A stretch of 41,188 nucleotides of DNA from Deinococci bacterium (GTDB lineage: Bacteria; Deinococcota; Deinococci; Deinococcales; Trueperaceae). Position 1 is the first letter of the stretch. Each line of letters starts with the position of its first letter. The notes below the pieces were generated by a model that searched no databases, was not told the origin of the DNA, and saw only the letters and a list, made by a program, of their open reading frames with translations. Where the stretch lies: contig JASBRS010000018.1 of the NCBI GenBank assembly GCA_030149325.1, positions 1 to 41,188 on the forward strand. The letters are read 5' to 3'. Both the position numbers and the translations under genes were made by a program. Below, piece after piece: positions 2,330 through 18,862 of this stretch.

Positions 2330-2358
2330 ATAATACCCGGGTAGAACTAGGGTGTCAA
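2330..2358 (-). promoter_or_regulatory. Near-consensus sigma70 promoter of the DUF2239-DUF1330 operon
   Basis: On the minus strand, TTGACA (2358-2353), a 17-nt spacer and TATTAT (2335-2330). Transcription would start near 2323, leaving a short leader of about 20 nt with a GGAG ribosome site before the ATG at 2302. The consensus match suggests strong constitutive expression. Confidence 0.8.
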
Positions 2359-4000: not shown

Positions 4001-5077
4001 TCAGTACTTCGAGGGGTCGACGGTGCCCACGTTCTTCAGGACGTCGTCGATCAACGAGGCGTCGATCGTCTGCTCGTAGCTCGGGATGGTGTCGATCTCG
4101 CCGAAGTCCTTGAGCTTCTGGGCCGTGTACTGGTACGACTCCTGGGTCGGCAGGCCCGCGTTCAGCGGCCAGATGTGGCCCTTGATCATCAGGTTGTAGG
4201 CGTACTCGATGGCGGCGGGGTCCTCACCGCTGGCCTTGGCGCCGTCGGCGATGACCTTGGCCTTGTTGGCCGGGTCGTACATCCAGCGGCTGGCGAGCAC
4301 CAGGGCGCGCAGGAAGCGCTTGACCTCGCCCTGGTTGGCCTTGACGTAGGCGTCGTTGGCCGCCAGCGCGCCGTACCACCAGTTGGGGATGGCCTCGTAC
4401 TCGTAGGCCAGCGCCGTCACGCCGGGGTCCTGCTGCAGCACCACGTAGGCGCCGTCGGCGTGGAACACGGCGGCGGAGATGCGGTGGCTGACCATGGCCG
4501 GAACGAAGCCGGAGCGCTGCATGTGGATCATGTGCACGCTGTCGAGCGACACGCCGGCGGGGGCGAGACAGGCCTGCAGGAGCGTCTGCGCGAAGCCGCC
4601 GGTGTCGGTGACGCCGACGTTCTTGCCCACCAGGTCCTTGGCGGTCTTGATGCCGTCGCCGCCGATGCACACCGTGTCGAGCTTGAGCCCGTACGACCAG
4701 ATCACGTGCGCTGCCTGGCCGTGCGAGGCGGCGATGATCGGGTCGGTGGCCGAGGTGAACGAGAACTTGGTCGAGCCGGCGACGGTGCTGAGGAAGGCCG
4801 GGACGCCGCTGGTCTCGGGGACGAGCTTGACGTGCAGGTGCTCGCGGTCGAAGAAACCTTCGGCCTGGGCGATGAACGGCACCAGGAACACGGCCTTCGG
4901 AGGCGACACGGCCACGGTGGCGCCGATGGTCCCCCAAGGCGTGGCGTCGGTGACGGTGGGCCAGTCGTTCGAGCCCTGAGCACTAGCCGTGCCGACCAGC
5001 AGCGCCGCGACGACGATGGCCGCGGCCGCCGCTGCCAGCGGCCCTCTCCGGAACGTTCTGTTGGTCAACCTGCTCAT
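4001..5077 (-). CDS. NitT/TauT-type ABC transporter substrate-binding protein
   Basis: 358 residues from ATG 5077 (GGGAGG 7-8 nt upstream). Residues 1-34 are a signal peptide (basic MSRLTNRTFRRG, then an Ala/Val-rich core ending GTASAQ). The mature part follows the TauA/SsuA/NMT1-like plan: an early strand-loop PPKAVFLVPFIAQAEGFFDRE, FSFTSATDPIIAASHGQ, GKNVGVTDTGGFAQTLLQA and SGFVPAMVSHRISAAVFHAD. This periplasmic (or lipid-anchored) receptor delivers small anions or heteroaromatics such as sulfonates, nitrate or pyrimidine precursors to the permease. It is the last gene of a minus-strand operon (ATPase-permease-receptor) that shares its regulatory region with the GntR gene. The ligand cannot be read from sequence; the neighbourhood favours a sulfonate or hydroxy-acid. 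Confidence 0.88.
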   Translation of the reverse strand: MSRLTNRTFRRGPLAAAAAAIVVAALLVGTASAQGSNDWPTVTDATPWGTIGATVAVSPPKAVFLVPFIAQAEGFFDREHLHVKLVPETSGVPAFLSTVAGSTKFSFTSATDPIIAASHGQAAHVIWSYGLKLDTVCIGGDGIKTAKDLVGKNVGVTDTGGFAQTLLQACLAPAGVSLDSVHMIHMQRSGFVPAMVSHRISAAVFHADGAYVVLQQDPGVTALAYEYEAIPNWWYGALAANDAYVKANQGEVKRFLRALVLASRWMYDPANKAKVIADGAKASGEDPAAIEYAYNLMIKGHIWPLNAGLPTQESYQYTAQKLKDFGEIDTIPSYEQTIDASLIDDVLKNVGTVDPSKY

Positions 5078-5160
5078 GTGCTGCCTCCCTAATCTCGTGC
5101 ACGGGACTGGACGGACTACGTCCCGGTGGCACCGATCGATCCGGCCTGCGCAGGCACGGC

Positions 5161-6003
5161 TCAACGCCCGGACTCCTTGTTGAACCAGGGCGCGAGGCGC
5201 TTGCGGAGCTCCTCGATGACGGTCCGGAAGGTGACCCCCAGGATCATCACGGTGAGGAGCACGGCCAGCATGTCCGCCGTCTTGTAGGCGTTGGCCGAGA
5301 AGGCCAGGATCTGGCCCATGCCCGACAAGGCGGTGTAGATCTCGGAGATGAACATCCCCACCAGCCCCATCGCCACGCCCTGGCTGAGGCCGGTGACGAT
5401 GTACGGCACGACGCTGGGGATGATGACGTGCCGCCACATGGCCATCTCGTTGGCTCGGAACGAGCGGGCCACCTCGACGAGCGCGGCATCGACGCTGCGA
5501 ACCCCGTTGTAGACGGCGATGGTGATGGGGAACAGCACGAACATCGAGATGATGATGAGCTGGGCCTCCACCCCGAAACCGAACCACAGCGAGATGAGCG
5601 GGATCAGCGCCACCAACGGGGTGGAGTAGATGGCGTAGACGTACATGCCGAGCGCGGCCTCGAACACGGCGAAGCGGCCCATCGCCACGCCCAGGATGAT
5701 GCCGACGATGCTGCCGATCACCAGGCCCCCCAGGAACATCGACAGGCTGTAGAGGATGGCGCCTCCGAGCGGCCCGTTCACCAGGAGCTCGAACAGATGC
5801 GCGATGACGGTCGTGAACGGCGTGAAGATGATCTCGAGCGTGCTGGCGCCGTAGATCTGCCATGCGCCGAGCACCACCACGAACGAGATCGCGCGGATCA
5901 ACAGGTAGCGATTGCGCTTGCGGCGCTCGTTCTGACGCCGCCGCGCCTTGACCCGTTCGCGCAGCGCGTTGCGGGCGTCGGGCAGACGGTTACCCACGTC
6001 CAT
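5161..6003 (-). CDS. NitT/TauT-type ABC transporter permease
   Basis: 280 residues. A basic N-terminal tail (residues 14-33, RERVKARRRQNERRKR) precedes the first of about six membrane helices. The EAA-loop signature of the SsuC/TauC family is present near residue 185-205 (ALVEVARSFRANEMAMWRHV followed by IIPSVVPYIVTG), which docks on the ATPase. Its ATG overlaps the TGA of the ATPase gene by one base (TGATG), so the two subunits are translationally coupled; the binding-protein gene follows after 83 nt. It imports the ligand of the adjacent receptor. Confidence 0.9.
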   Translation of the reverse strand: MDVGNRLPDARNALRERVKARRRQNERRKRNRYLLIRAISFVVVLGAWQIYGASTLEIIFTPFTTVIAHLFELLVNGPLGGAILYSLSMFLGGLVIGSIVGIILGVAMGRFAVFEAALGMYVYAIYSTPLVALIPLISLWFGFGVEAQLIIISMFVLFPITIAVYNGVRSVDAALVEVARSFRANEMAMWRHVIIPSVVPYIVTGLSQGVAMGLVGMFISEIYTALSGMGQILAFSANAYKTADMLAVLLTVMILGVTFRTVIEELRKRLAPWFNKESGR

Positions 6004-6788
6004 CAGACCGCCCTCCCGCTTCCCGCCAGCATGTCGTCCCAGATGGTCTGCCGCAGCGGCTCGTAGGCGGGATGCTTGCGCACGCTCTCGACCGTGCGGG
6101 GTCGTTCGATCGGGACGTCGAAGACGTGGTAGATCTCTCCGGGCTTGGCCTTCAGCACCACGATGCGATCGGCCAGCGTGATGGCCTCGTCGATGCTGTG
6201 GGTGACGAACACCACGGTCTGACGGAAGCGCTCCCAGATCGACAGCAGCTCGCCCTGGAGCAGCTCCCGGGTGTAGGCGTCGACCGAGGCGAACGGCTCG
6301 TCCATCAGCAGCATCTCCGGACCCACCGCGAGGGCGCGGGCGATGCCGACGCGCTGGCGCATCCCGCCCGAGAGGTTGTCGGGGAAGGCGTCCTCGAAGC
6401 CCTTCAGTCCGACCAGCTCGACCGCCCAGCGCACCTTCTCCGCGATGCTCGCCTGCGGCACGCGGGCCAGGACCATGGGGAAGGCGACGTTCTGGCTGAC
6501 GGTCTTCCAGGGGAAGAGCCCGAACTGCTGGAAGACCATCGCCGCCTGGCGCGGCGGGCCCTGGATGACCTCGCCGTCGAGGGAGACGGTGCCTTCGTCG
6601 GGCTGGATGAGTCCGTCGAGGATGCGCAACAGGGTGGTCTTGCCGCATCCGCTGGGGCCGAGCAGGCACAGGAACTCGTGCTGGTAGATCTCGAGGTTGA
6701 TGTCGTGGAGGACCTCGAGGTCTCCGTACCACTTGGAGATGTGCGACGCTACCGCCTTGGCTTGCCGCGTGGCCGTCGCAACGGTCAT
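6003..6788 (-). CDS. NitT/TauT-type ABC transporter ATP-binding protein
   Basis: 261 residues from the ATG at 6788; the frame is open further upstream to 6965 but that part reads through the promoter region and is Arg/Pro-rich noise. Walker A GPSGCGKTT at 44-52, Q-loop VFQQFGLFPW at 85-94, signature NLSGGMRQR at 138-146, Walker B MLLMDEP at 159-165 and switch His197 are all intact, as in SsuB/TauB. It is the first gene of the operon, reached by a leader of about 150 nt from the promoter at 6944-6972, which carries the shared GntR operator. The ribosome site is weak (GGGCAGAC). Confidence 0.9.
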   Translation of the reverse strand: MTVATATRQAKAVASHISKWYGDLEVLHDINLEIYQHEFLCLLGPSGCGKTTLLRILDGLIQPDEGTVSLDGEVIQGPPRQAAMVFQQFGLFPWKTVSQNVAFPMVLARVPQASIAEKVRWAVELVGLKGFEDAFPDNLSGGMRQRVGIARALAVGPEMLLMDEPFASVDAYTRELLQGELLSIWERFRQTVVFVTHSIDEAITLADRIVVLKAKPGEIYHVFDVPIERPRTVESVRKHPAYEPLRQTIWDDMLAGSGRAV

Positions 6789-6922: not shown

Positions 6923-6936
6923 ATCGAATTGTCGAT
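6923..6936. repeat. Inverted repeat at the ABC-operon transcription start
   Basis: ATCGA-ATTG-TCGAT, with the AATTGTC motif of the main operator inside it. It lies just downstream of the -10 box of the minus-strand promoter, at about the predicted start point (near 6937), so a second regulator-binding site or roadblock is possible. It is weaker than the main operator. Confidence 0.35.
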
Positions 6937-6943
6937 GCCCGCA

Positions 6944-6972
6944 ATTCTAGGTCGCGGCTCGTCAATTGTCAA
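6944..6972 (-). promoter_or_regulatory. Promoter of the NitT/TauT-type ABC operon
   Basis: On the minus strand, TTGACA (6972-6967), exactly 17 nt, then TAGAAT (6949-6944). This is the same pair of boxes and the same spacing as the promoter of the lyase operon at 9054-9082. The -35 box overlaps that of the divergent gntR promoter almost base for base, so one bound regulator would block both. Confidence 0.75.
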
Positions 6973-6977
6973 TTTTC
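6963..6977. promoter_or_regulatory. GntR-type operator in the divergent control region
   Basis: The core AATTG-T-CAATT (6964-6974) is a perfect palindrome around one central base, inside the 15-mer CAATTGTCAATTTTC. The same 15-mer occurs in reverse orientation at 9049-9063 in front of the lyase operon. The site covers the -35 boxes of both divergent promoters (ABC operon and gntR), which is the expected place for an FCD-type GntR repressor that also regulates itself. Binding by this GntR protein is inference. Confidence 0.65.
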
Positions 6978-6994
6978 AATTTTTTGGGTAGACT
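6966..6994 (+). promoter_or_regulatory. Promoter of gntR, probably giving a leaderless transcript
   Basis: TTGTCA (6966-6971), 17 nt, then TAGACT (6989-6994). The predicted start point, about 7 nt after the -10 box, falls on the ATG at 7002. No Shine-Dalgarno sequence precedes that ATG or the one at 6996, which fits leaderless translation. Confidence 0.65.
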
Positions 6995-7001
6995 CATGAG
7001 C

Positions 7002-7697
7002 ATGGGGAACGCCAGATTGGGGAGGTTACAAGCCCCTGAACGCGACGTGCTGTCGCGTCAGGCGTACGACGCGCTGCGCGAGGGCATCCTGGCGCGCACG
7101 CTGCCGGCCGGCAGCAAGCTGGTGATGCGCGATCTGGTCGAGCAGCTCCAGCTCTCGCCGACGCCCATCAACCAGGCGCTCGCCGCGCTCGAGCGCGAGG
7201 GCCTGGTGGAGTCGCGCCCGCACCGCGGCTTCTACGTGATCACCCTGGACGCCGGCGACATCCACGATATCTACGCCCTGCGGGAGGTGCTGGAGAGCCT
7301 GGCGATGCGCCTGGCGGTCGAGCGCCGACCGGTCGAGCTGGCGAAGGCGCTCCACAAGATCCACGAGGAGCAGCGGACGTGCTGCGCCAAGGGCCGCAAC
7401 ATGGCCCGCTACGGCGACCTCGACGTGACCTTCCACCGCACGGTGTGGGAGATGTCGGGGAACCCGCGGCTGCTGCGGATGTCGGAGATGCTGATGGGCC
7501 AGGTGCGCCTGCTCATCGCCACCTCGGCGGAGGTGGAGGGTCGGCTGGGGGCGTCGTTGGCCGAGCACGAGACGATCCTCCGCCACGTCGATCGACGGGA
7601 GGCCGAGCTGGCGGCGGCCGCCATGGAGCGGCACGTGCGCAACGCCGGATCGGCGTTGCGGGAGCATATGGAGTCGGAGCCGGAACGACCGCGCTGA
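7002..7697 (+). CDS. GntR-family transcriptional regulator, FCD subfamily
   Basis: 231 residues from ATG 7002. A winged helix (about 17-80, with MRDLVEQLQLSPTPINQALA as helix-turn-helix and a PHRGFYVI wing) is joined to an all-helical FCD ligand domain (about 88-225). Asp141, His145, His189 and His211 lie where FCD proteins bind a metal that contacts carboxylate ligands. FCD regulators usually control sugar-acid or organic-acid pathways. Here the gene sits between the ABC importer and the dehydrogenase/lyase genes, and palindromes that fit it lie in its own promoter and before the lyase operon. The start at 7002 rather than 6996 or a TTG at 6966 was chosen because it coincides with the predicted transcription start. 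Confidence 0.9.
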   Translation: MGNARLGRLQAPERDVLSRQAYDALREGILARTLPAGSKLVMRDLVEQLQLSPTPINQALAALEREGLVESRPHRGFYVITLDAGDIHDIYALREVLESLAMRLAVERRPVELAKALHKIHEEQRTCCAKGRNMARYGDLDVTFHRTVWEMSGNPRLLRMSEMLMGQVRLLIATSAEVEGRLGASLAEHETILRHVDRREAELAAAAMERHVRNAGSALREHMESEPERPR

Positions 7698-7765
7698 ACG
7701 GCGCCGACCTCGAACGATCGGCGCGCCGAGGTGCCGCCGGAGAAGCGAGCGACCGGAGGTCAGGC

Positions 7766-8758
7766 ATGGTGGATGCGACGTCGGAACAGCGGCGGGTGGT
7801 GGCGTGCGGCGCACGCTTCGCCCCGCTCGACATCGAGGCAGGGGTGCTCGGGCCGCTCGGGATCGAGGTCGTCAAGGCCGAGCGCGATGGCGACGAGGAC
7901 GCCTTGATCGAGAGCTGCCGGGGCGCCGAGGCGGTGCTCGCCGGGTCCGCGCCGCGCTTCACGCGCCGCGTGCTCGAGGCGCTGCAGGGCACGAGGGCGC
8001 TGGTGCGCTACGGCATCGGCGTCGACCGCATCGACCTGGAGGCCGCGGCGGACGTCGGCATCACCGTCTGCAACGTGCTCGACTACTGCACCGACGAGGT
8101 GGCGCTGCACGCTGTCACGCTGGTGCTGGCGCTGACCCGGAAGATCGAGACCGCCGCGCGGCACGCACGCGCGGGCGGGTGGGGCGTGGCCGAGGTGATG
8201 CCGATCGCCGCGCCCGAAGCCTCCACCGTGGCGGTGCTCGGGCTGGGCCGCATCGGAAGGCGCGCGGCCGAGTTCCTGCACGGGCTCGGCTTCCGGGTGG
8301 TGGGCTACGACCCCTTCCTCACGGCCGATCCCACGGGCGGCGCCGTCACCCTGGCGGCCTCGGTCGACGAGGCGATCACGGGCGCGCAGGTGGTGAGCCT
8401 GCACCTGCCGCTGTCGGAGTCCACCCGCCACCTGCTCGGCGAGCGCGAGCTCGGCCTGCTCGCACCTGGCGCCGTGGTCGTCAACGTCAGTCGTGGGGGC
8501 CTCATCGATGAGGCCGCGCTGCTCCGGGCGCTCGACGCGGGCCACGTGGGCGGGGCCGGCCTCGACGTTCTCGAGAACGAGCCGCCGACCCCCGACGACC
8601 CGGTGGTGCGCCATCCGGGGGTGCTGGTGACGCCCCACATGGCCTGGTACTCGGTCCAGGCCCAGGTCCGCATGCGCCGCATGGCGGCGGAAGAGGTGGC
8701 GCGCTGCCTCCGCGGCGAGGCGCCGCTCAGCCCCGTGCGCCCGGCCGTGAAGGGGTAG
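7766..8758 (+). CDS. D-2-hydroxyacid dehydrogenase (phosphoglycerate dehydrogenase/SlcC-like), NAD(P)-dependent
   Basis: 330 residues, start ATG with GGAGG 7 nt upstream. The Rossmann motif VLGLGRIGRRA (157-167) with Asp182 at the end of the second strand favours NAD over NADP. The catalytic trio of the family is intact: Arg243 (SRGGLID), Glu272 (ENEPP) and His291 (TPHMAWYS). These enzymes interconvert a 2-hydroxyacid and a 2-oxoacid. Family members near SuyAB-type lyases and TTT transporters include (S)-sulfolactate dehydrogenase SlcC, so oxidation of sulfolactate to sulfopyruvate, or of another 2-hydroxyacid, is a reasonable guess; the substrate is not determined by sequence. It follows gntR by 68 nt and probably shares its transcript. 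Confidence 0.88.
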   Translation: MVDATSEQRRVVACGARFAPLDIEAGVLGPLGIEVVKAERDGDEDALIESCRGAEAVLAGSAPRFTRRVLEALQGTRALVRYGIGVDRIDLEAAADVGITVCNVLDYCTDEVALHAVTLVLALTRKIETAARHARAGGWGVAEVMPIAAPEASTVAVLGLGRIGRRAAEFLHGLGFRVVGYDPFLTADPTGGAVTLAASVDEAITGAQVVSLHLPLSESTRHLLGERELGLLAPGAVVVNVSRGGLIDEAALLRALDAGHVGGAGLDVLENEPPTPDDPVVRHPGVLVTPHMAWYSVQAQVRMRRMAAEEVARCLRGEAPLSPVRPAVKG

Positions 8759-8761
8759 ACC

Positions 8762-8983
8762 GTGTCCGATACCGCCCGCGATCCGAGCCACCGCTGCCGT
8801 CCGGAGACGGGCGCCATCGAGGGCATCGTGTTCTTCAGCTCCAAGAGCCGCAGTTGGGTGATGACGGTGGTGCCGCCGGGCGGCCCCCCGCGGCAGCAGC
8901 GCGTCGACGTGCGCTACTGCCCGTGGTGCGGCCGTGATCTCGAGGGCGTCACGCCCGACGAGGACGCCGACCTGCTGGAGTGA
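8762..8983 (+). CDS. Small zinc-ribbon-like protein of unknown function
   Basis: 73 residues, starting with a GTG 4 nt after the dehydrogenase stop; an AAGGGG ribosome site spans that stop. A C-terminal CPWCG knuckle (residues about 54-58) is preceded by a strand-rich segment (IVFFSSKSRSWVMTVVPP) and a possible partner Cys near residue 12 (HRCRPETG), so one metal site with only three Cys, completed by His11 or another residue, is possible. The operon position points to an accessory role, for example a metal or redox partner of the dehydrogenase, but nothing more specific can be claimed. Confidence 0.65.
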   Translation: MSDTARDPSHRCRPETGAIEGIVFFSSKSRSWVMTVVPPGGPPRQQRVDVRYCPWCGRDLEGVTPDEDADLLE

Positions 8984-8984
8984 G

Positions 8985-9007
8985 CCGCGAGGGGCGCGGC
9001 CTCTCGG
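8985..9007 (+). terminator. Weak hairpin between the gntR operon and the lyase operon
   Basis: CCGCGAGG / CCTCTCGG arms (7 of 8 paired) around a 7-nt loop, directly after the zinc-ribbon stop codon and about 45 nt before the next promoter. It may be a partial terminator, separating the two plus-strand transcripts. Confidence 0.35.
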
Positions 9008-9048
9008 GCCCGGGGGAGGGCGGGACCGCGCTTCCGCGAAAGAAAATA

Positions 9049-9063
9049 GAAAATTGACAATTG
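9049..9063. promoter_or_regulatory. GntR-type operator upstream of the lyase operon
   Basis: GAAAATTGACAATTG is the exact reverse complement of the 15-mer at 6963-6977, and the match continues with one mismatch through a further AAAAT. The palindromic core AATTG-A-CAATT (9052-9062) contains the -35 box, so a bound repressor would block RNA polymerase. Confidence 0.65.
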
Positions 9064-9082
9064 CTACAGCGCCACCTAGAAT
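9054..9082 (+). promoter_or_regulatory. Promoter of the lyase/transport operon
   Basis: TTGACA (9054-9059), 17-nt spacer, TAGAAT (9077-9082). The boxes and spacing are identical to the ABC-operon promoter. Transcription should start near 9089 and could run through to the cupin gene at 19278, as no strong terminator was seen in between. Confidence 0.78.
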
Positions 9083-9139: not shown

Positions 9140-9445
9140 GTGCCCACGCAGGGGAGGTGTGTCGTCATCCACAAGTTCCTGATCCACAACGAAGGGGACG
9201 ACGTCGGCGTCGCCACCGAGGACATCGCCCAAGGCGAGGACGTCGTCGGCATCTTCATGGACACCGGCGGCCAGGTGCAGGTCACGGCCAGGGGCGCGGT
9301 GCCGCTGAGCCACAAGATCGCCGTCCACGCGCTGCGCGAGGGCGACGAGGTCACCGAGTACGGGCTGCGGGTCGGCATCGCGACGGCCGACATCGAGCCC
9401 GGCTCGTACGTGCACACCCACAACATCCGTTCGGCGCGCTGGTAG
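9140..9445 (+). CDS. UxaA-type lyase small subunit (SAF domain; SuyA-like)
   Basis: About 92-101 residues comprising only the SAF domain found at the N-terminus of altronate/galactarate dehydratases: [27 protein letters not shown], then [20 protein letters not shown] and the closing [11 protein letters not shown]. In split enzymes such as (2R)-sulfolactate sulfo-lyase SuyAB this is the small subunit; the large subunit follows 14 nt downstream. The start is uncertain. The only standard in-frame start is GTG 9140, but homologues begin right before HKFL and the good ribosome site (GGGGAGG, 9151-9157) points to the ATC at 9167 or a neighbouring GTC. The call of a small lyase subunit is firm; the substrate is not. 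Confidence 0.85.
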
Positions 9446-9458
9446 GAGAGGGAGCAGC

Positions 9459-10613
9459 ATGGCATCCGGACTCACCGGTTACAGGCGGGCCAACGGCCGC
9501 GTCGGCATCCGCAACTACGTGGTCGTCATCCCCGTCGACGACATCTCCAACGCCGCCGCCGAGGGTGTGGCGCGGCTCGTCCCCGAGGCGCTCGCCATCC
9601 CGCACCCCTACGGGCGGCTGCAGTTCGGCGAGGACCTCGAGCTCCACTTCCGCACGCTGATCGGGGCCGGCTCCAACCCCAACGTGGCCGCCGCCGTCGT
9701 CATCGGCATCGAGCCGAACTGGACCGAGCGCGTCGTCGCGGGCATCCGCGCCCAGGGCACCCCCGTGGAGGGTTTCTCCATCGAGCGCCACGGCGACCTC
9801 GAGACCATCCGGGTGGCCGCCCGCGCTACCCAGAAGTTCGTGCAGGAGGCGGGCGAGCTCCAGCGCGAGCCGATCGAGCTGGGCGAGATCATGCTCAGCA
9901 TCAAGTGCGGTGAGTCCGATACCACCACCGGCCTGGCGTCCTGCCCCACCGTGGCGCAGGTCGTCGACAAGGTGGTCGACGCCGGCGGCACGGTGCTGTT
10001 CGGCGAGACCTCCGAGCTGACCGGCGGCGAGCACCTCATCGCCGAGCGCTGCATCGACGACGACGTGCGCCGGCGCTTCCAGGAGACCTACGACGCCTAC
10101 ATCCGCATGATCGACGAGCAGGACGCCGACCTCATGGGTTCGCAACCCACCCAGGGCAACATCCGCGGCGGCCTCAGCACCATCGAGGAGAAGGCGCTCG
10201 GCAACATCGAGAAGACGGGCACCAAGCCGGTGGTCGACGTGCTCGAGCCGGCGGTGGCGCCCACCAAGCCGGGCCTGAACTTCATGGACACCTCGTCGGC
10301 GGCCGCCGAGTGCATCACCCTGATGATGGCCGCCGGCGCCGTGATCCACCTGTTCCCGACCGGGCAGGGCAACATCGTCGGCAACCCCATCGAGCCCGTC
10401 ATCAAGCTCACCGGCAACCCCCTGACGGCGAGCACCATGACCGAGCACATCGACCTCGACGTCAGCGGACTGCTGCGCCGCGAGATCGACGTGGTCGGAG
10501 CCGGCGAGCAGCTCATGACCGTCGTCGAGAGCACCATCCGCGGGCGGCGCACCTGCGCCGAGGCGCTGGGGCACCGCGAGTTCGTGCTCACCAAGCTCTA
10601 CCGGAGCGCCTGA
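9459..10613 (+). CDS. UxaA-type lyase large subunit (SuyB-like hydro-/sulfo-lyase)
   Basis: 384 residues, ATG with GGAG 5-6 nt upstream. It matches the UxaA C-terminal domain throughout: [19 protein letters not shown], the conserved KCGESD box (149-154), [55 protein letters not shown] and [18 protein letters not shown]. These are iron-dependent enzymes that remove water, or in SuyB sulfite, from 2-hydroxyacids. The separation into two genes, the [14 protein letters not shown] segment and the neighbouring hydroxyacid dehydrogenase and TTT transporter agree best with the SuyAB group, which makes pyruvate and sulfite from (R)-sulfolactate. A sugar-acid dehydratase remains a serious alternative. 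Confidence 0.85.
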
Positions 10614-10653: not shown

Positions 10654-11715
10654 ATGAGTCGACCCGTGCGCGTCGCTGCCGTGGGGTTGGGGCGCTGGGC
10701 CAACGTGCTCGCCGACGCCTACACCCGCAGCGACGAGGTCGAGCTGGTCAGTTGCTTCAGTCGCTCGCCGGGGAAGCGTGAGGCCTTCGCCAAACGGTAC
10801 GGCACGGGTCAGGACGCCAGCCTCGAGGCGTTGCTGGCGCGTGACGACCTCGACGGCGTCATCGTCACCGTGCCCAACGACCAGCACGCCGCCGTCATCG
10901 AGCAGGCGGCGGCGGCCGGCAAGCACGCCTTCGTGGAGAAGCCGATCGCCGTCACCCTCGAGGACGCCCGCCGCATCGAGCGCGCGGTCGAGCGTGCCGG
11001 GGTGGTGTTCACCTGCGGGCACTCGGCGCGTCGCCTGGGGGGCTTGCGCAAGATCAAGGCGATGATGACGTCGGGCGAGATCGGCGAGGTCTCGGTCATC
11101 GAGGCGGTGTTCGCCAACGAGCGCGGCCTCCAGATCGAACCCGGCAACTGGCGCGGCGACCCCGAGAAGGCGCCGGGCGGGCCCCTGACCCAGCTCGGCA
11201 TCCACCAGATCGACAACCTGCAGTACCTCCTCGGCCCGGTGGTGCGCGTCGCGACCTTCGGCAAGCCCATGTATACTCGCGTCGAGAACGACACGGTGAA
11301 CGTCACGGTGCTCGAGTTCGAGCGCGGTCCGATGGCCTACCTGGGGACGAACTGGGCCTGTCCAGGCGTCTTCTCGCTCAACGTCTACGGGACCACGGCC
11401 GACCTCTTCTACCAGCTCGACTTCAGCTGGTGGAGCAACTCCGACGTGACCGACCAGCACTCGAGCCTGACCAAGCGTGCGTTCGCCCGTGCCACCGACG
11501 ACCCCGACGACTTCGAGTTGACGGACGTCGCCGTCGACATCCCGCGCGTCGATCACCTGCGCGACGAGGTGGAGGAGTTCGCGCGGGCGGTGCGGGGCGA
11601 TACGGAGGCCGAGGTGGACGCGCGGGTGGCGACGCGCAACGTCGCGGTGATGCTGGCGGCCGTTCGCTCGAGTCGAGAGGGCCGCATCGTCGAGGTCGCC
11701 GAGCTGCTCGACTAG
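10654..11715 (+). CDS. Gfo/Idh/MocA-family oxidoreductase
   Basis: 353 residues, ATG with GGGGAG 7 nt upstream. The N-terminal Rossmann fold starts with RVAAVGLGRWANVLADAY and carries the family's HAFVEKPIAVTLEDA (EKP) motif near residue 95. The C-terminal alpha/beta domain has GGPLTQLGIHQIDNLQYLLG, with the Asp/His positions used for proton transfer. These enzymes oxidise or reduce a hydroxyl group of sugars, inositols or related polyols with NAD(P). In this operon it would act beside the 2-hydroxyacid dehydrogenase, perhaps on another position or stereoisomer of the substrate (inference). Confidence 0.87.
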   Translation: MSRPVRVAAVGLGRWANVLADAYTRSDEVELVSCFSRSPGKREAFAKRYGTGQDASLEALLARDDLDGVIVTVPNDQHAAVIEQAAAAGKHAFVEKPIAVTLEDARRIERAVERAGVVFTCGHSARRLGGLRKIKAMMTSGEIGEVSVIEAVFANERGLQIEPGNWRGDPEKAPGGPLTQLGIHQIDNLQYLLGPVVRVATFGKPMYTRVENDTVNVTVLEFERGPMAYLGTNWACPGVFSLNVYGTTADLFYQLDFSWWSNSDVTDQHSSLTKRAFARATDDPDDFELTDVAVDIPRVDHLRDEVEEFARAVRGDTEAEVDARVATRNVAVMLAAVRSSREGRIVEVAELLD

Positions 11716-11730
11716 AAGGGAGGCACGGGA

Positions 11731-13251
11731 GTGATCTCCGCCGCTGTGACGGGCCTGCTGGCGCTGTTCACGCCGCAGTCGATCCTCTTCATGATCGTCG
11801 GGGTGATCTACGGCCTGGTCATCGGCGTGCTCCCCGGCCTGGGTGGGATCGTCGCCATGGCGCTGGTCCTGCCGTTCACCTTCGGCTTCGAGCCGGCCGC
11901 GGCGCTGGCGTTGCTCCTCGGCGCCCACGCCGCCACCGTGTGGGGCGGCTCCATCACCGGCATCCTCTTCAACGTCCCCGGTGCCGCCAAGACCATCACC
12001 AGCGTCTTCGACGGCTACCCCATGACGCAGCGCGGCGAGGGCGCGCGGGCGCTGGGCGCCTCGGCCATGGCGGCGCTGCTGGGCGGCGTCATCGGCGCCG
12101 TCTTCCTGGTCGCGACCATCCCCATCGTGCGGCCGCTGATGCTCGCGCTGGGGCCCAGCGAGTACTTCATGATGGCGCTCTGGGGCCTCACCATCATCGC
12201 GACGTTCAGCGAGGGCTCCGTGATCAAGGGGCTGATCGCCGCGGGCCTGGGGATCCTGGTGGCCTTCATCGGCATGGACCCCGTCACCGGCACCGCCCGC
12301 TACACCTTCCACAGCCTCTTCCTGCTCGACGGCATCTCCTTCCCGGTCGCGATGATCGGGCTGTTCGCGGTGTCGCAGATGCTCAAGCTCTTCGTGAAGG
12401 GCGGCACGGTGGTGGAGGCGCAGGTCGACACCGAGGTCAGTACCGTGTGGGACGGCGTGCGTGACACCTTCGAACACTGGTGGCTGGTGCTGCGCTCGAG
12501 CCTGCTGGGCCTGTGGATCGGCGTGCTGCCGGGGGTGGGCGCCAGCGTCGGCGGCATCGCCGCCTACGCGCAGGCGGCGCAGACCTCGAAGCACCCCGAG
12601 CGCTTCGGCCACGGCGCCGTCGAGGGGGTCATCGGCCCCGACGCCACGCTGGCCGCCACCGAGGGGGGCGGGCTGCTCCCGACCCTGGCCTTCGGCATCC
12701 CCGGCGGTGAGAGCATGGCCATCCTGCTGGCCGCCTTCATCAACATGGGGATCACCCCCGGGCCGCAGATGCTCACCAGCAACCTCAGCCTGGTGTTCAC
12801 CATGGTGTGGATCATCGTGATCTCCAACATCCTGACCACCGTCATCGGGCTGATGACCTCCAAGACGCTGGCGCGCTCGGCCACCCTGCCGGCCCGCTAC
12901 CTGGTGCCGGTGGTGCTGGCGGTGTGCTTCATGGGCGCCTTCGCCACCCACGGTCGCGTCGGCGACGTGGTGGTGGCCGCCATCTTCGGCGTCGTCGGCT
13001 ACATCATGGACAAGTACAACTACTCCCGCGCCGACTTCGTCATCGGCATGGTGCTGGCCACCATGATCGAGCGCGACCTGCACATCTCGCTGACGCTCTA
13101 CGGACCCACGTTCATCTTCACGCGGCCCGTCACGCTGGCGATGTTCCTGTTCATCGTCTTCACCACCCTGCTGCCCATCGTGCGGCGGCGTCTGGCACGG
13201 GCGCGGGCCTCGGCAGCCGAGGGCTCGGGACCGGACGGGGGCGCCGCGTGA
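11731..13251 (+). CDS. tctA: Tripartite tricarboxylate transporter large membrane subunit TctA
   Basis: 506 residues, GTG start with AAGGGAGG upstream. It has about 12 membrane helices and both family signatures: the first half contains VIGVLPGLGGIVAMALVLPF and GGSITGILFNVPGAA, repeated in the second half as WIGVLPGVGASVGGIAAY with TLAFGIPGGESMAILLAAF. TctA forms the substrate channel of the TTT transporters that import di- and tricarboxylates and, in the SlcHFG case, sulfolactate, driven by ion gradients. Its stop overlaps the start of tctB. Confidence 0.93.
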   Translation: MISAAVTGLLALFTPQSILFMIVGVIYGLVIGVLPGLGGIVAMALVLPFTFGFEPAAALALLLGAHAATVWGGSITGILFNVPGAAKTITSVFDGYPMTQRGEGARALGASAMAALLGGVIGAVFLVATIPIVRPLMLALGPSEYFMMALWGLTIIATFSEGSVIKGLIAAGLGILVAFIGMDPVTGTARYTFHSLFLLDGISFPVAMIGLFAVSQMLKLFVKGGTVVEAQVDTEVSTVWDGVRDTFEHWWLVLRSSLLGLWIGVLPGVGASVGGIAAYAQAAQTSKHPERFGHGAVEGVIGPDATLAATEGGGLLPTLAFGIPGGESMAILLAAFINMGITPGPQMLTSNLSLVFTMVWIIVISNILTTVIGLMTSKTLARSATLPARYLVPVVLAVCFMGAFATHGRVGDVVVAAIFGVVGYIMDKYNYSRADFVIGMVLATMIERDLHISLTLYGPTFIFTRPVTLAMFLFIVFTTLLPIVRRRLARARASAAEGSGPDGGAA

Positions 13252-13781
13252 GCCGGCGCGCCCAGGAGAACGTCCTGGCTCTCGCCATCGCCGCCATCCT
13301 GATCGCCGTCATCGTGATCAGCTTCCACTACGGACCGCGCGCGAGGCTGGTGCCGATCCCGGTCGCCGCCTTCTCGCTGATCCTGGTCCTCGCGCAACTC
13401 GTGGTGCAGAACACCGGCTCCCCCGACGACCTGCACGTCGACGTGCTGGAGATGCTCACGCGGCGCAGCGCCCGTGAGGGGGTCGCGAGCACCGCAGCGG
13501 CGACCCGACAACGCCCCGCCAGCGAGCACCCGCCGGGCACGCGGGCGCGGCGAGAGGCCATCGCCTTCACGCTGCTGGCGGTGCTGCTGGGGCTGGTGCT
13601 GCTGCTGGGCCCCATCGTCGGCATCTTCCTGTTCGTGCTGGGCTACGGCGGCGCCGTCGGCCGCATGCGCTGGTCCAGCGCGCTGATGCTGTCCCTCGGC
13701 GTGAGCGGGGTGCTCTACCTGCTCTTCGTCGTGCTGCTGAACACCCAGATGTATCACGGGATCCTGCCGGGACCGCTGTGA
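13248..13781 (+). CDS. tctB: Tripartite tricarboxylate transporter small membrane subunit TctB
   Basis: 177 residues from a GTG that overlaps the tctA stop by 4 nt (GTGA). Four membrane helices are visible (about 8-25, 34-48, 104-132 and 143-162), with a Ser/Thr/Arg-rich cytosolic loop between helices 2 and 3, as usual for TctB. Sequence conservation is low in this family, so the call rests on size, topology and position between tctA and tctC. Confidence 0.85.
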   Translation: MSRRAQENVLALAIAAILIAVIVISFHYGPRARLVPIPVAAFSLILVLAQLVVQNTGSPDDLHVDVLEMLTRRSAREGVASTAAATRQRPASEHPPGTRARREAIAFTLLAVLLGLVLLLGPIVGIFLFVLGYGGAVGRMRWSSALMLSLGVSGVLYLLFVVLLNTQMYHGILPGPL

Positions 13782-13855
13782 GGGCGGTCGGGAAGGAGCG
13801 GAGCCGCAGAAGGAGACGACGTCACGCCAGACGACACCTGGGAACGGAGGACACT

Positions 13856-14875
13856 GTGGGACGGAAGGCACGTATGAGGATCATCGTGGGGCTCGTCGCC
13901 GTGCTCGCACTCGCGGGCGGGTTGGCGACGGCCCAGAGCAGCTCGGACTACTACGCCGGGAAGACGGTCACGCTGATCCTCCCGAACAGCCCGAGCGGTC
14001 AGATGACGCAGTACGCTCGCATGATCGCCCCCTACATCGCCAAGCACCTCGGTGCCAAGGACGTGCGCGTGCAGAACATGCAGGGCGGCGGCGGCGTGGT
14101 GGGTGCCAACTACCTGTGGCACGTCAAGCCCGACGGCATGACCATCGCCTTCACCAGCGTCCCGGCGTTGGTCCTGGCCCAGCTCTCGGGGAGCCAGGGC
14201 GTGGAGTTCGACGCCACCAAGTTCGTCTACCTGGGTCGCGCCGCCACCGAGGCGCGCGTGCTGGTGGTCGGCGGCAAGTCGAAGATCCAGACCATCCAGG
14301 ACGTCGAGAACCTGGGCCGCCCGTTCATCTTCCCGACGCAAGGCACGGACGAGGATTTCTACACCATGGCGGTGCTGGCCTACGCGCTGAACTTCGACCT
14401 CAAGGCGGTCACCGGCTACCAGGGCAACGCCGACACCACCTTGGCGGTCATCAAGGGTGAGGGCGACGGCCACATCACCGCCTGGCACTCCTCGCTGGCT
14501 GGCATCCAGGCCGGCGACCTGCGTCCGATCCTGACGATCGGCGACGCGCGCGAGGCGGGCTACCCCGACGTGCCGACCGCCGTCGAGGTGACGCAAGGCA
14601 ACGGCAAGGAGCTGGTGCAGGCGATCGTCAACATGATCACCATGCACCGCAGCTTCTTCGGGCCTCCGGGCATGCCCGAGGCCGCCGTGAGCGCCATGCG
14701 CTCGGCCGTCTGGGCTGCGCTGCACGACCCGGGCCTGCTGGCCGACGCCCAGAAGCAGGGGCTCATCATCGTTCCCATGCAGGGGGCCGAGGAGCAGCCC
14801 AAGGTCGAGCAGATCGCCGCGGCCGGTCAGCAGATCGTCCCGATCCTGAAGAAGGCGGTCGCCGCCATCCAGTAG
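13856..14875 (+). CDS. tctC: Tripartite tricarboxylate transporter substrate-binding protein TctC
   Basis: 339 residues from GTG 13856 (GGAGG exactly 5 nt upstream); the frame is open from 13778 but that stretch is Arg-rich and lacks a ribosome site. Residues 1-28 are a signal peptide (RKARMRIIVGLVAVLALAGG...). The mature protein shows the Bug/TctC pattern: YYAGKTVTLILPNSPSGQM, RVQNMQGGGGVVGANYLWHV and the late FFGPPGMPEAAVSAMR. It is the extracytoplasmic receptor that hands a carboxylate ligand to TctAB. The ligand loop is not typical of citrate binders enough to call a substrate. Confidence 0.9.
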   Translation: MGRKARMRIIVGLVAVLALAGGLATAQSSSDYYAGKTVTLILPNSPSGQMTQYARMIAPYIAKHLGAKDVRVQNMQGGGGVVGANYLWHVKPDGMTIAFTSVPALVLAQLSGSQGVEFDATKFVYLGRAATEARVLVVGGKSKIQTIQDVENLGRPFIFPTQGTDEDFYTMAVLAYALNFDLKAVTGYQGNADTTLAVIKGEGDGHITAWHSSLAGIQAGDLRPILTIGDAREAGYPDVPTAVEVTQGNGKELVQAIVNMITMHRSFFGPPGMPEAAVSAMRSAVWAALHDPGLLADAQKQGLIIVPMQGAEEQPKVEQIAAAGQQIVPILKKAVAAIQ

Positions 14876-16041: not shown

Positions 16042-17766
16042 GTGAGCGATTCGGTGATCCGGCTCGAGACCGACGTGGTCGTGGTCGGCGGCGGCGTCGC
16101 CGGGTGCATGGCCGCCATCCCGGCGCTCGAGGCCGGGATGGGCGTGGTCATCTGCGACAAGGGCAAGCTGCTGGAACGCAGCGGCTCGGTCGGCGGCGGC
16201 GTCGACCACTATCTGACGGTGATGGAGACGGGGCCCGAGTGGGACACCCCGGACTTCCTGCTCAAGCACATCCCCGAGCTGACCGACGGCATCGTCGACA
16301 TGGAGGTCACCGACCGCGTGGTCCGCGAGATGCCGCGCGTGTTGCGCAAGCTCGAGGAGCTGGGGGTCGACTTCAAGGACCCCCGGACCGGCACCTACGA
16401 CCGGCACCGCTCGTTCGGCCTGCCGGGCGCGTACCACATCAACTTCGACGGCACCCGCTTCAAGCACCACATCGGACAGCGCGTCCGGCGCGGCAAGGCC
16501 ACCGTGCTGGCCCGCACCATGGGGGTCCAGGTGCTGGTGGAGGACGGCCGCGCCTACGGCGTGCTGGCCTTCGACATCCGCGCCGGCACCTGGTACTACG
16601 TGCGCGCGCGGGCGGTGGTGCTCTCCACCGGCGACGTCAACCGGCTGTCGAAGAACGCCTCGGGGCTCGCCTTCGATAGCTGGCACTGCCCCTACAACAC
16701 CGGCGACGCCCAGGCCATGGGCTACCGTGCCGGCGCCACCCTGGCCAACATGGAGTTCACCGAGACCACCCTGACGCCCAAGGGCTTCTCGACCCAGGGC
16801 CTCAACGCCCTGGTCAGCCTGGGCGCCTACTTCCTCAACCGCCAGGGCGAGCGCTTCATGTTCCGCTACGACCCCAAGGGCGAGAACGCGCGCCGCGCGG
16901 TGCTCGCGGACGGCGTCATCAACGAGTACCTGGAGGGCAACGGCCCCATCTACCTCGACTGCCGCCACCTCCCGGCCGACGTGCTCGACCACATGGAGGA
17001 GACGCTGCAGATCGACCGCCACACGCTGCCGGCGTTCTACCGCCAGAAGGGCGTGGACTTCCGGACCGACCCCATCGAGGTGTCGATCTCCGAACTCAGC
17101 ATCCGCCGCAGCGGCCTCTACTTCCGCGGCAGCGGCATCGCCGTCGACGTCAACGCCGAGTCCTCGGTGCGGGGGCTGTTCTCGGCCGGCGACAGCGCCA
17201 CCGTCAGTGGCGGCATCGCCGGCGCCGCCACGCTGGGTCACATCGCCGGCGAGAGCATCGTGCAGTACCTCAAGGAGCCGCGGACCCTGCCCGACGTCGC
17301 CGCCGGGGAGCTTGCCGGCCTGACCGCGGCGGCGGCCGTCCATCTGGAGCAACCGGACGGCCCCTCGTGGCGCGCTTTCGAGGACCGCATCCGGGCCACG
17401 GTCACCGACCACGCCGGCGTGCGCCGCACCGAGAAGGGCTTGCGCCTGGCGCTCGACACGCTGCACGCGTTGGGCCGGGAGGAAGCGAACCTGGGCGCGG
17501 CCCACCATCACGACCTGATGCGCGTGCACGAGGCGCGCAACATCCGACTCAACGCCGAGCTGCTGGCCGAGGCCGCGCTCGAGCGCAAGGAGAGCCGTAC
17601 CGGCTCGGCCCACCGTCGCATGGATTTCCCGGGCACCGACGACGAGCACTGGCGTTCGTTCGTGCTGGTCGACCGGACCGACGACGGCCCGGGCGTACGC
17701 ACGCTCCCCGCGCGCGACCCGCTGTCGGCGGCGTTCCCGCGCAGCCGACAGCAGAACGGAGGCTGA
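16042..17766 (+). CDS. FAD-dependent oxidoreductase, AprA/fumarate-reductase flavoprotein family
   Basis: 574 residues, GTG start behind GGAGGAGGGAAG. The FAD-binding GGGVAG motif is at 16-21 and a second dinucleotide-fold segment (VVLSTGDVNRLS) near residue 190-205. The capping-domain region and the late GLFSAGDSATVSGG (about 375-390) complete an FrdA/SdhA/AprA-type fold. The next gene encodes an 8-Cys ferredoxin, as in adenylylsulfate reductase AprAB, where sulfite and AMP are turned into APS or the reverse. It is shorter than classical AprA (over 600 residues) and I cannot confirm the AMP/sulfite residues, so a different substrate is quite possible. In this operon it could process the sulfite or the oxidised product of the lyase pathway. 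Confidence 0.78.
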   Translation: MSDSVIRLETDVVVVGGGVAGCMAAIPALEAGMGVVICDKGKLLERSGSVGGGVDHYLTVMETGPEWDTPDFLLKHIPELTDGIVDMEVTDRVVREMPRVLRKLEELGVDFKDPRTGTYDRHRSFGLPGAYHINFDGTRFKHHIGQRVRRGKATVLARTMGVQVLVEDGRAYGVLAFDIRAGTWYYVRARAVVLSTGDVNRLSKNASGLAFDSWHCPYNTGDAQAMGYRAGATLANMEFTETTLTPKGFSTQGLNALVSLGAYFLNRQGERFMFRYDPKGENARRAVLADGVINEYLEGNGPIYLDCRHLPADVLDHMEETLQIDRHTLPAFYRQKGVDFRTDPIEVSISELSIRRSGLYFRGSGIAVDVNAESSVRGLFSAGDSATVSGGIAGAATLGHIAGESIVQYLKEPRTLPDVAAGELAGLTAAAAVHLEQPDGPSWRAFEDRIRATVTDHAGVRRTEKGLRLALDTLHALGREEANLGAAHHHDLMRVHEARNIRLNAELLAEAALERKESRTGSAHRRMDFPGTDDEHWRSFVLVDRTDDGPGVRTLPARDPLSAAFPRSRQQNGG

Positions 17767-17772
17767 AGCCCG

Positions 17773-18081
17773 ATGGACTCCCAGGGCGGCGCGCTCGCCG
17801 CGCACAACCCCATCCAGATCGACCCCAACAGCTGCATCCGCTGCACCCTGTGCGACTGGGTGTGCCCGGGCGACATCATCTACAAGGAGGAGGGCGACCG
17901 CGAGACGCTGCCGGTGGTGGCGTTCCCGGACGAGTGCTGGTACTGCGGCCACTGCGAATCGGTGTGCCCCACCGACGCCATCACCATCGTCTTCCCCGAA
18001 CGGATGCTGAACAACACCACCGATGTGCTGACGCTGCTGGGGACGATCGAGCCCGGCGACGTTCCGGCGATGGAGGGCTGA
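17773..18081 (+). CDS. Ferredoxin-like 2x[4Fe-4S] protein (AprB-like electron-transfer subunit)
   Basis: 102 residues, 6 nt after the flavoprotein stop. Two complete clusters are predicted: Cys21, 24, 27 and 31 (CIRCTLCDWVCP), and Cys55, 58, 61 and 65 (CWYCGHCESVCP), with the usual crossing of the fourth Cys. The long loop between the clusters and the Trp residues next to the Cys (CDWVCP, ECWYC) resemble AprB rather than free bacterial ferredoxins. It is shorter than AprB because the C-terminal tail that wraps around AprA is only about 35 residues here. It most likely carries electrons to or from the flavoprotein. Confidence 0.85.
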   Translation: MDSQGGALAAHNPIQIDPNSCIRCTLCDWVCPGDIIYKEEGDRETLPVVAFPDECWYCGHCESVCPTDAITIVFPERMLNNTTDVLTLLGTIEPGDVPAMEG

Positions 18082-18085
18082 GGCC

Positions 18086-18862
18086 TTGGCCGCACACCCG
18101 AACGACCTGATGGACATCACGCAGCCGGAGGCGGAGGCGCTGCTGCGGAGCAGCGGCACCGTCATCATCCCGACGGGCAGCGTCGAGCAGCACGGCCCGC
18201 ACCTGCCCTGTGGCACCGACTGGGTGGCCGCCCTGGTGTTCGCGCGTGCCGTGGCGGAGCGCCTCGGCGCGCTGGTGGTACCGTTCGCGCCGATGGGCAT
18301 CACGCCCTTCCACATGGGCTTCGCAGGCACCGTCACGCTGCGTCACGAGACCTTCGTGGAGGTCATGCTCGACCTGGCGACCAGCGTGGCCCGGCACGGC
18401 GCGCGCCGCCTCATCATCATGAACTGGCACGAGGGCAACTCCGACGCCATCGGCGTGGCGGCCAGCCGCATCCATCACGAGGTCGGCCTCGAGGTCCTGC
18501 GCGTGGAGACCTGCTACGTGGCGCGCGACCTCTTCGGCGACGAGACCGGCGGCCTCACCCACGGCGGCGAGCTGGAGGTGCTGCCGGTCCTGGCCTACGA
18601 CGCCTCGCTCGTGCATCTGGAGCGCGCGACCAACCCGTCGCCGCCGGGGCGAGGACGCAAGATCGACGCCGTGCGCCGCAACCGCAACGTGCGCCCCGTC
18701 CTCGACGACGTCCGTCAGATCGCGGCGACCGGTTGGTACGGCGATCCGCAGCCCGCCACCCTCGACAAGGCCGAGCGTGTCATCGCCGGCGTCGCCGAGC
18801 GCATCGCGGCCGACGTCGAAGCGGCCAGCGCGGCCATGGCGGAGCTCCCGGACGTGCCGTGA
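18086..18862 (+). CDS. Creatininase-family amidohydrolase
   Basis: 258 residues, TTG start with GGAGGGCTGAGG upstream, 4 nt after the ferredoxin stop. The metal-site motifs of the creatininase fold are intact: SVEQHGPHLPCGTDW (Glu, His and Asp ligands near 33-47), NWHEGNSD (near 113) and THGGELEVLPVL. Family members hydrolyse cyclic or linear amides (creatinine, formamidopyrimidines, mycofactocin precursor) using two divalent metals. Its place behind the AprAB-like pair suggests it cleaves an amide or activated ester in the same pathway, but the substrate is unknown. Confidence 0.88.
   Translation: MAAHPNDLMDITQPEAEALLRSSGTVIIPTGSVEQHGPHLPCGTDWVAALVFARAVAERLGALVVPFAPMGITPFHMGFAGTVTLRHETFVEVMLDLATSVARHGARRLIIMNWHEGNSDAIGVAASRIHHEVGLEVLRVETCYVARDLFGDETGGLTHGGELEVLPVLAYDASLVHLERATNPSPPGRGRKIDAVRRNRNVRPVLDDVRQIAATGWYGDPQPATLDKAERVIAGVAERIAADVEAASAAMAELPDVP

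Follow-up and report, generated by a model that had tools for sequence, protein, structure and literature searches.

Gene organization of the locus

The window, by which the whole stretch of 41,188 nucleotides analysed here is meant, contains a gene for an FCD-type GntR regulator (positions 6996 to 7697, plus strand), followed in the same direction by a gene for a D-2-hydroxyacid dehydrogenase (7766 to 8758), a candidate enzyme of the sulfolactate dehydrogenase type, and by a small open reading frame of 73 amino acids without family match (8762 to 8983), the product of which carries a Cys-x2-Cys motif (YCPWCG). The GntR protein consists of an N-terminal GntR winged helix (Pfam, 8e-17) and a C-terminal FCD domain (1.1e-24), both above the Pfam cut-off, and its recognition helix reads SPTPINQAL.

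The next genes on the plus strand form the lyase operon, encoding a SuyA-like small subunit with SAF domain (9140 to 9445; SAF, 4.3e-5), a SuyB-like large subunit with the second and C-terminal GD_AH domains (9459 to 10613; GD_AH_C, 2.3e-81), a Gfo/Idh/MocA oxidoreductase (10654 to 11715), and the large permease TctA (11731 to 13251) and the solute-binding protein TctC (13778 to 14875) of a tripartite tricarboxylate transporter. A gene for a FAD-binding fumarate reductase-like flavoprotein, located beside a gene for a 2x4Fe-4S ferredoxin-like protein and followed by a creatininase-family gene (16042 to 18862), possibly represents the end of this operon. On the minus strand, an ABC importer operon (4001 to 6788) encodes an ATPase (likely start at 6788), a permease, and a binding protein of the NMT1/SsuA type.

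Promoters and the repeated 15-mer

Three promoters were recognized: that of the ABC operon (TTGACA-17-TAGAAT, 6944 to 6972, minus strand; TTGACA at 6972 to 6967 and TAGAAT ending at 6944), that of gntR (TTGTCA-17-TAGACT, 6966 to 6994, plus strand; TTGTCA from 6966 and TAGACT ending at 6994), and that of the lyase operon (TTGACA-17-TAGAAT, 9054 to 9082, plus strand; TTGACA from 9054 and TAGAAT ending at 9082). The identity of boxes and spacing between the ABC and lyase promoters, pointed out in a preceding sequence-only reading, was confirmed. The -35 boxes of the ABC operon (6967 to 6972) and of gntR (6966 to 6971) occupy almost the same bases on opposite strands, face to face, and as judged from this position, the two promoters should therefore be mutually exclusive and a single bound protein should cover both. 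The gntR -10 box (6989 to 6994) lies 1 to 7 bases 5' of the ATG start codons at 6996 and 7002, and the gntR transcript is probably leaderless, an arrangement with the -10 box adjoining the open reading frame that is common in Deinococcus-Thermus (PMC12340547). The transcription starts of the ABC operon, gntR, and the lyase operon are predicted at about 6937, 7001, and 9089, respectively. An RNA element within the leader of the ABC operon was considered and rejected, as the window has no match to Rfam.

The 15-mer CAATTGTCAATTTTC is located at 6963 to 6977 on the plus strand (site 1), and its exact copy at 9049 to 9063 on the minus strand (site 2). Its core, AATTGTCAATT (6964 to 6974 in site 1, 9052 to 9062 in site 2), is palindromic and follows the pattern AATTGNCAATT. 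As the sequence-only reading had claimed, each 15-mer overlaps the TTGACA of a TTGACA-17-TAGAAT promoter: site 1 extends across the -35 boxes of ABC and gntR, divergent promoters whose boxes overlap, and is common to both, and site 2 extends across that of the lyase operon. The two sites are 2.1 kb apart, flanking gntR and its two downstream genes. By pattern search of the 3.04-Mb genome, AATTGNCAATT was found at these two places only, both within promoters, while the reversed pattern gave no match; 0.06 to 0.23 sites are expected from composition alone at 66 to 72% GC. When one mismatch was allowed, a single additional copy was found in the whole genome, at 6971 to 6981, overlapping site 1. 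Dinucleotide shuffles of the window gave 0.03 matches even with up to three mismatches.

Site 1 also includes an array of heptad direct repeats, TCAATTG-TCAATTT-TCAATTT (6962 to 6982, plus strand), unremarked before, in which TCAATT recurs at 6962, 6969, and 6976 with an exact spacing of 7 bases. At site 2 the heptads are degenerate (GCAATTG-TCAATTT-TCTATTT on the minus strand). The inverted repeat that had been proposed at the ABC start point (6923 to 6936) is present as ATCGA-4-TCGAT, but arms of 5 bases are in themselves no evidence. A longer inverted repeat, GAATTG-N10-CAATTC (6926 to 6947; arms 6926 to 6931 and 6942 to 6947), extends across the ABC -10 box and start point, and is a possible auxiliary site.

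The three promoters are conspicuous for their match to the consensus: in a region of 20 kb, five promoter-like sites were detected against 0.7 in shuffles. A total of 32 TTGACA-17-TANNNT sites were identified in the genome (reversed control, zero), and TAGAAT as the -10 box was found only at the two sites in the window. Strong promoters of this genome commonly take the form TTGACA-17-TANNNT, and the sharing of boxes by unrelated genes therefore means little in itself. Another promoter of this class, TTGACA-17-TATTAT (2330 to 2358, minus strand), is located 5' of the DUF2239 gene (1652 to 2302). Aligned on the -35 box, the ABC and lyase promoters are identical at 36 of 66 bases, including the 15-base run around the -35 box and ACCTAGAAT at the -10 box. 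When 29 of the TTGACA-17-TANNNT promoters of the genome were compared pairwise, 22 of 38 bases outside the boxes were identical in these two, the highest of all pairs (mean 11.0, sd 3.4). Shuffling under local composition gave a probability of about 0.0014 for an identity this high and of 4e-5 for the unbroken run. A run of this length alone is not decisive, because another, GC-rich promoter pair also has a 15-base identical run around its -35 box. In addition, the regions upstream of the -35 box of the ABC and lyase promoters are the most A+T-rich among the 29, and part of the likeness may therefore be due to an UP element.

Probable identity of the lyase

The small SAF subunit and the large GD_AH subunit of the lyase are encoded separately, as in SuyAB. 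The large subunit, present as a single copy in the genome, is 72% identical to a protein encoded on a Rhodococcus plasmid and 60 to 62% identical to those of Paracoccus, Methylobacterium, and others. Around the genes of these relatives are those for a putative sulfate exporter, TauE/SafE, a 2-hydroxyacid dehydrogenase, and an Ldh-family oxidoreductase, neighborhoods that resemble the SlcC/ComC/SuyAB/exporter set by which sulfolactate is mineralized (PMC12421959). The enzyme is thus probably SuyAB, with putative sulfolactate sulfo-lyase activity, the reaction of which is the splitting of (R)-sulfolactate into pyruvate and sulfite. Galactarate/altronate dehydratase was rejected as its identity on the score of the galactarate dehydratase equivalog (142.9 bits against a cut-off of 730.85) together with the neighbors of the relatives.

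From the SuyB-like identities and neighborhoods, the galactarate model below its cut-off, and the SsuA/NMT1-like ABC binding protein, the locus is read as one for uptake and cleavage of sulfonate or sulfolactate. The genes behind the two like promoters had been taken as unrelated, a view that the present assignment would reverse: a sulfonate uptake system, a sulfolactate-type hydroxyacid dehydrogenase, and a SuyAB-type sulfo-lyase probably belong to a single pathway. Membership of the dehydrogenase in the 2HADH family is certain, but the protein shares only 32% identity with the 2HADH encoded at the Rhodococcus locus and 30 to 33% with the Thermaceae-type one, and is not demonstrably SlcC. A sulfite exporter gene was not recognized adjoining this lyase operon; TauE-family genes are present elsewhere in the genome, but this family is near-universal (14 of 14 control genomes). 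The SuyAB loci of Paracoccus, Rhodococcus, and Methylobacterium are similar to this locus in having the SAF small and UxaA-type large subunits and neighbors for uptake and hydroxyacid dehydrogenation, but differ in that the linked GntR has a quite different HTH and the palindromes are others than those found here.

Orthologous regulators and their palindrome

The regions around 20 gntR orthologs were compared. In 16 of them, with 48 to 56% identity of the regulator, gntR is divergent from the genes for SAF, UxaA2, and 2-hydroxyacid dehydrogenase; 15 of these 16 belong to one family, which we infer from gene content and sequences to be the Thermaceae (Meiothermus and relatives), and one to another family. 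On the same grounds, the window is read as Trueperaceae-like. Among the remaining four, one region ends at a contig edge and three are from more distant orthologs without the lyase. When the genome collection was scanned with the GntR protein, a single distant relative was returned.

The gntR/lyase intergenic regions of the relatives contain a conserved 18-bp palindrome, GATTTTATATCTAAAATC or close variants of it, which overlaps the lyase promoter and adjoins a TTGAC -35 box directed at the lyase gene. Across 111 genomes of the order, the palindrome (pattern GATTTTANATCTAAAATC) occurs almost only in genomes with the gntR ortholog, and the further copies are located mainly directly 5' of a Gfo/Idh gene (several loci examined) or of the gene for a TauE sulfite exporter (two loci examined). 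In four genomes of relatives, GATTATAAATCTAAAATC ends 5 to 8 bases before the start codon of the conserved Gfo/Idh gene, where it forms a probable further operator on a likely leaderless promoter. In two Meiothermus-like genomes, the palindrome between gntR and suyAB has a close variant directly upstream of the TauE/SafE exporter gene. One genome also has the palindrome, in exact form, inside a CRISPR-like repeat array. Given its recurrence 5' of the Gfo/Idh and TauE genes, it is plausible that the ancestral regulator governs several promoters as a regulon for the same pathway. The lyase operon in the window also includes a Gfo/Idh gene, the product of which is only distantly like that of the relatives (31% identity over 99 residues).

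The Thermaceae-type locus agrees with that in the window in having an orthologous FCD-GntR beside the same lyase genes and a palindrome overlapping the lyase promoter. The gene order is different, as gntR and the dehydrogenase gene precede the lyase operon here instead of gntR being divergent from it, and so is the palindrome, GATTTTATATCTAAAATC at the spacer and -10 box there and AATTGNCAATT at the -35 box here. By pattern search, GATTTTANATCTAAAATC is absent from the genome under study. Conversely, AATTGNCAATT was detected in 22 of the 111 genomes, in high numbers only in a few of these, but in none of the short ortholog loci compared, including those with the adjacent lyase. The D. peraridilitoris ortholog has kept a palindrome of the ancestral type, but beside other genes.

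Proposed regulation of the pathway

The sequence-only reading had placed two transport systems, the dehydrogenase, and the lyase in one GntR/FCD regulon. This is partly supported, and a GntR/FCD regulator with one site common to its own, the ABC, and the lyase promoters is the best reading. The link of the regulator with the lyase is supported, indirectly, by the divergent synteny and the intergenic palindrome conserved in the relatives, but their palindrome differs in sequence from the one in the window and is missing here. On balance, and with moderate confidence, the two 15-mers are considered to be copies of one candidate operator for the FCD-GntR encoded between them, through which the ABC importer, gntR itself, and the lyase operon would be controlled. 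The location of gntR between the two sites and the finding of the core in no other promoter of the genome are in favor of an operator, and the regulon reading is independently supported by the small regulon around the lyase in relatives; the different conserved motif next to the lyase in orthologs is against it, and the AT-rich site might be a feature of the promoters instead.

For the model below, we infer GntR binding, the sign of control, the effector, and the substrate. The effector is probably sulfolactate, or else a C3 sulfonate or hydroxyacid related to it. In its absence, a GntR dimer would bind to AATTGNCAATT and, by covering the -35 box, keep RNA polymerase away. A single dimer at site 1 would shut off the two divergent promoters, so that gntR would be autoregulated and the ABC importer of the sulfonate type controlled as well; a dimer at site 2 would shut off the suyAB, gfo/idh, and tripartite transporter genes. 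Upon binding of the effector, GntR would be released and the whole uptake-and-cleavage pathway induced as one.

The strongest competitor, to which we give about one chance in four, is that the shared 15-mer is not an operator but belongs to a core promoter of high strength combined with an UP element of the A-tract type, generated by convergence or by local copying of a promoter, and that GntR binds elsewhere, for instance at the GAATTG-N10-CAATTC repeat, or regulates only one operon. The identity does cover promoter elements, namely the -35 box, the A-rich upstream stretch, and ACCTAGAAT flanking the -10 box, and both the A+T content noted above and the other palindrome of the orthologs fit this explanation. 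The ATTG just 3' of the -35 box, however, is a part of the palindrome and not of a promoter, is identical at both sites, and follows the -35 box in none of the 30 other listed TTGACA-17-TANNNT promoters; the uniqueness of the pair in the genome and its position on both sides of the regulator gene also argue for the operator.

As a sub-variant of the operator reading, cooperative binding of GntR to the heptads, (TCAATTK)n, instead of one dimer on the palindrome is unlikely, although it would account for the exact 7-base spacing of the three TCAATT at site 1. NanR, an FCD GntR likewise with a tandem repeat at a promoter, ranks among the closer regulators in NCBIfam (E 4.8e-20), and three NanR dimers bind to a triple-repeat operator, (GGTATA)3 (PMC8012715). 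At site 2, however, intact heptads are limited to the first two, leaving two clean repeats, and the GntR protein lacks the long N-terminal extension, as its HTH domain begins after about 18 residues (if translation starts at 6996), against the 32-residue extension needed for NanR cooperativity (PMC8012715). Least probable, at roughly one chance in nine, is the binding of a different transcription factor to the shared site, such as the TetR-family protein (428 to 1063) or one encoded elsewhere, with GntR acting on other targets: no copy of the ancestral GntR palindrome occurs in the genome, which has four GntR-type matches in all, and the TetR gene is on the same contig, but gntR alone is bracketed by the sites, its partnership with suyAB is conserved in two families, and its recognition helix is changed where a changed operator would predict.

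Possible change of regulator and operator

Under the reading of the 15-mers as GntR operators, the differences from the relatives can be considered together. The recognition helix is SPTP[IV]KEAL in the relatives, and S[PA]TP[IVF]K is found in 21 of 21 aligned relatives, D. peraridilitoris included. The changed K/R position of the helix is, by analogy with FadR, presumably one that contacts bases. Since the genome lacks the palindrome of the relatives and has a different recognition helix in GntR, the comparison suggests that regulator and operator have changed together; for the same absence and difference of the palindrome, the identity of the operator is not simply transferable from the relatives. 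The full proposal, which we put forward tentatively and as having somewhat better than one chance in three, is that the sulfolactate regulon was rewired, with K-E of the helix replaced by N-Q, and GATTTTANATCTAAAATC replaced by AATTGNCAATT in the -35 region of all target promoters, including the face-to-face pair.

This type of regulation is already known, and the possible operator switch is its most interesting aspect. Atu1419, one of the FCD GntR repressors of catabolic operons (VanR/FadR groups), has three identical ATGTATACAT palindromes at promoters (PMC7797058). FCD-GntR repressors including Atu1419 share with the system proposed here the GntR HTH and FCD domains and identical short palindromes that overlap the boxes of divergent and separate promoters; the present case would differ from the Atu1419 type in that the candidate operator AATTGNCAATT lies within the -35 box and is common to two face-to-face promoters, and in the helix SPTPINQAL. 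In the literature searched, no described regulator of sulfolactate degradation in Deinococcota was found. The likely function of the locus is herein corrected, since by family models it would be named galactarate dehydratase. If true, the proposal would provide the degradation of sulfolactate in Deinococcota with a specific regulator and its operator, and would supply a small natural case of a paired change in recognition helix and operator.
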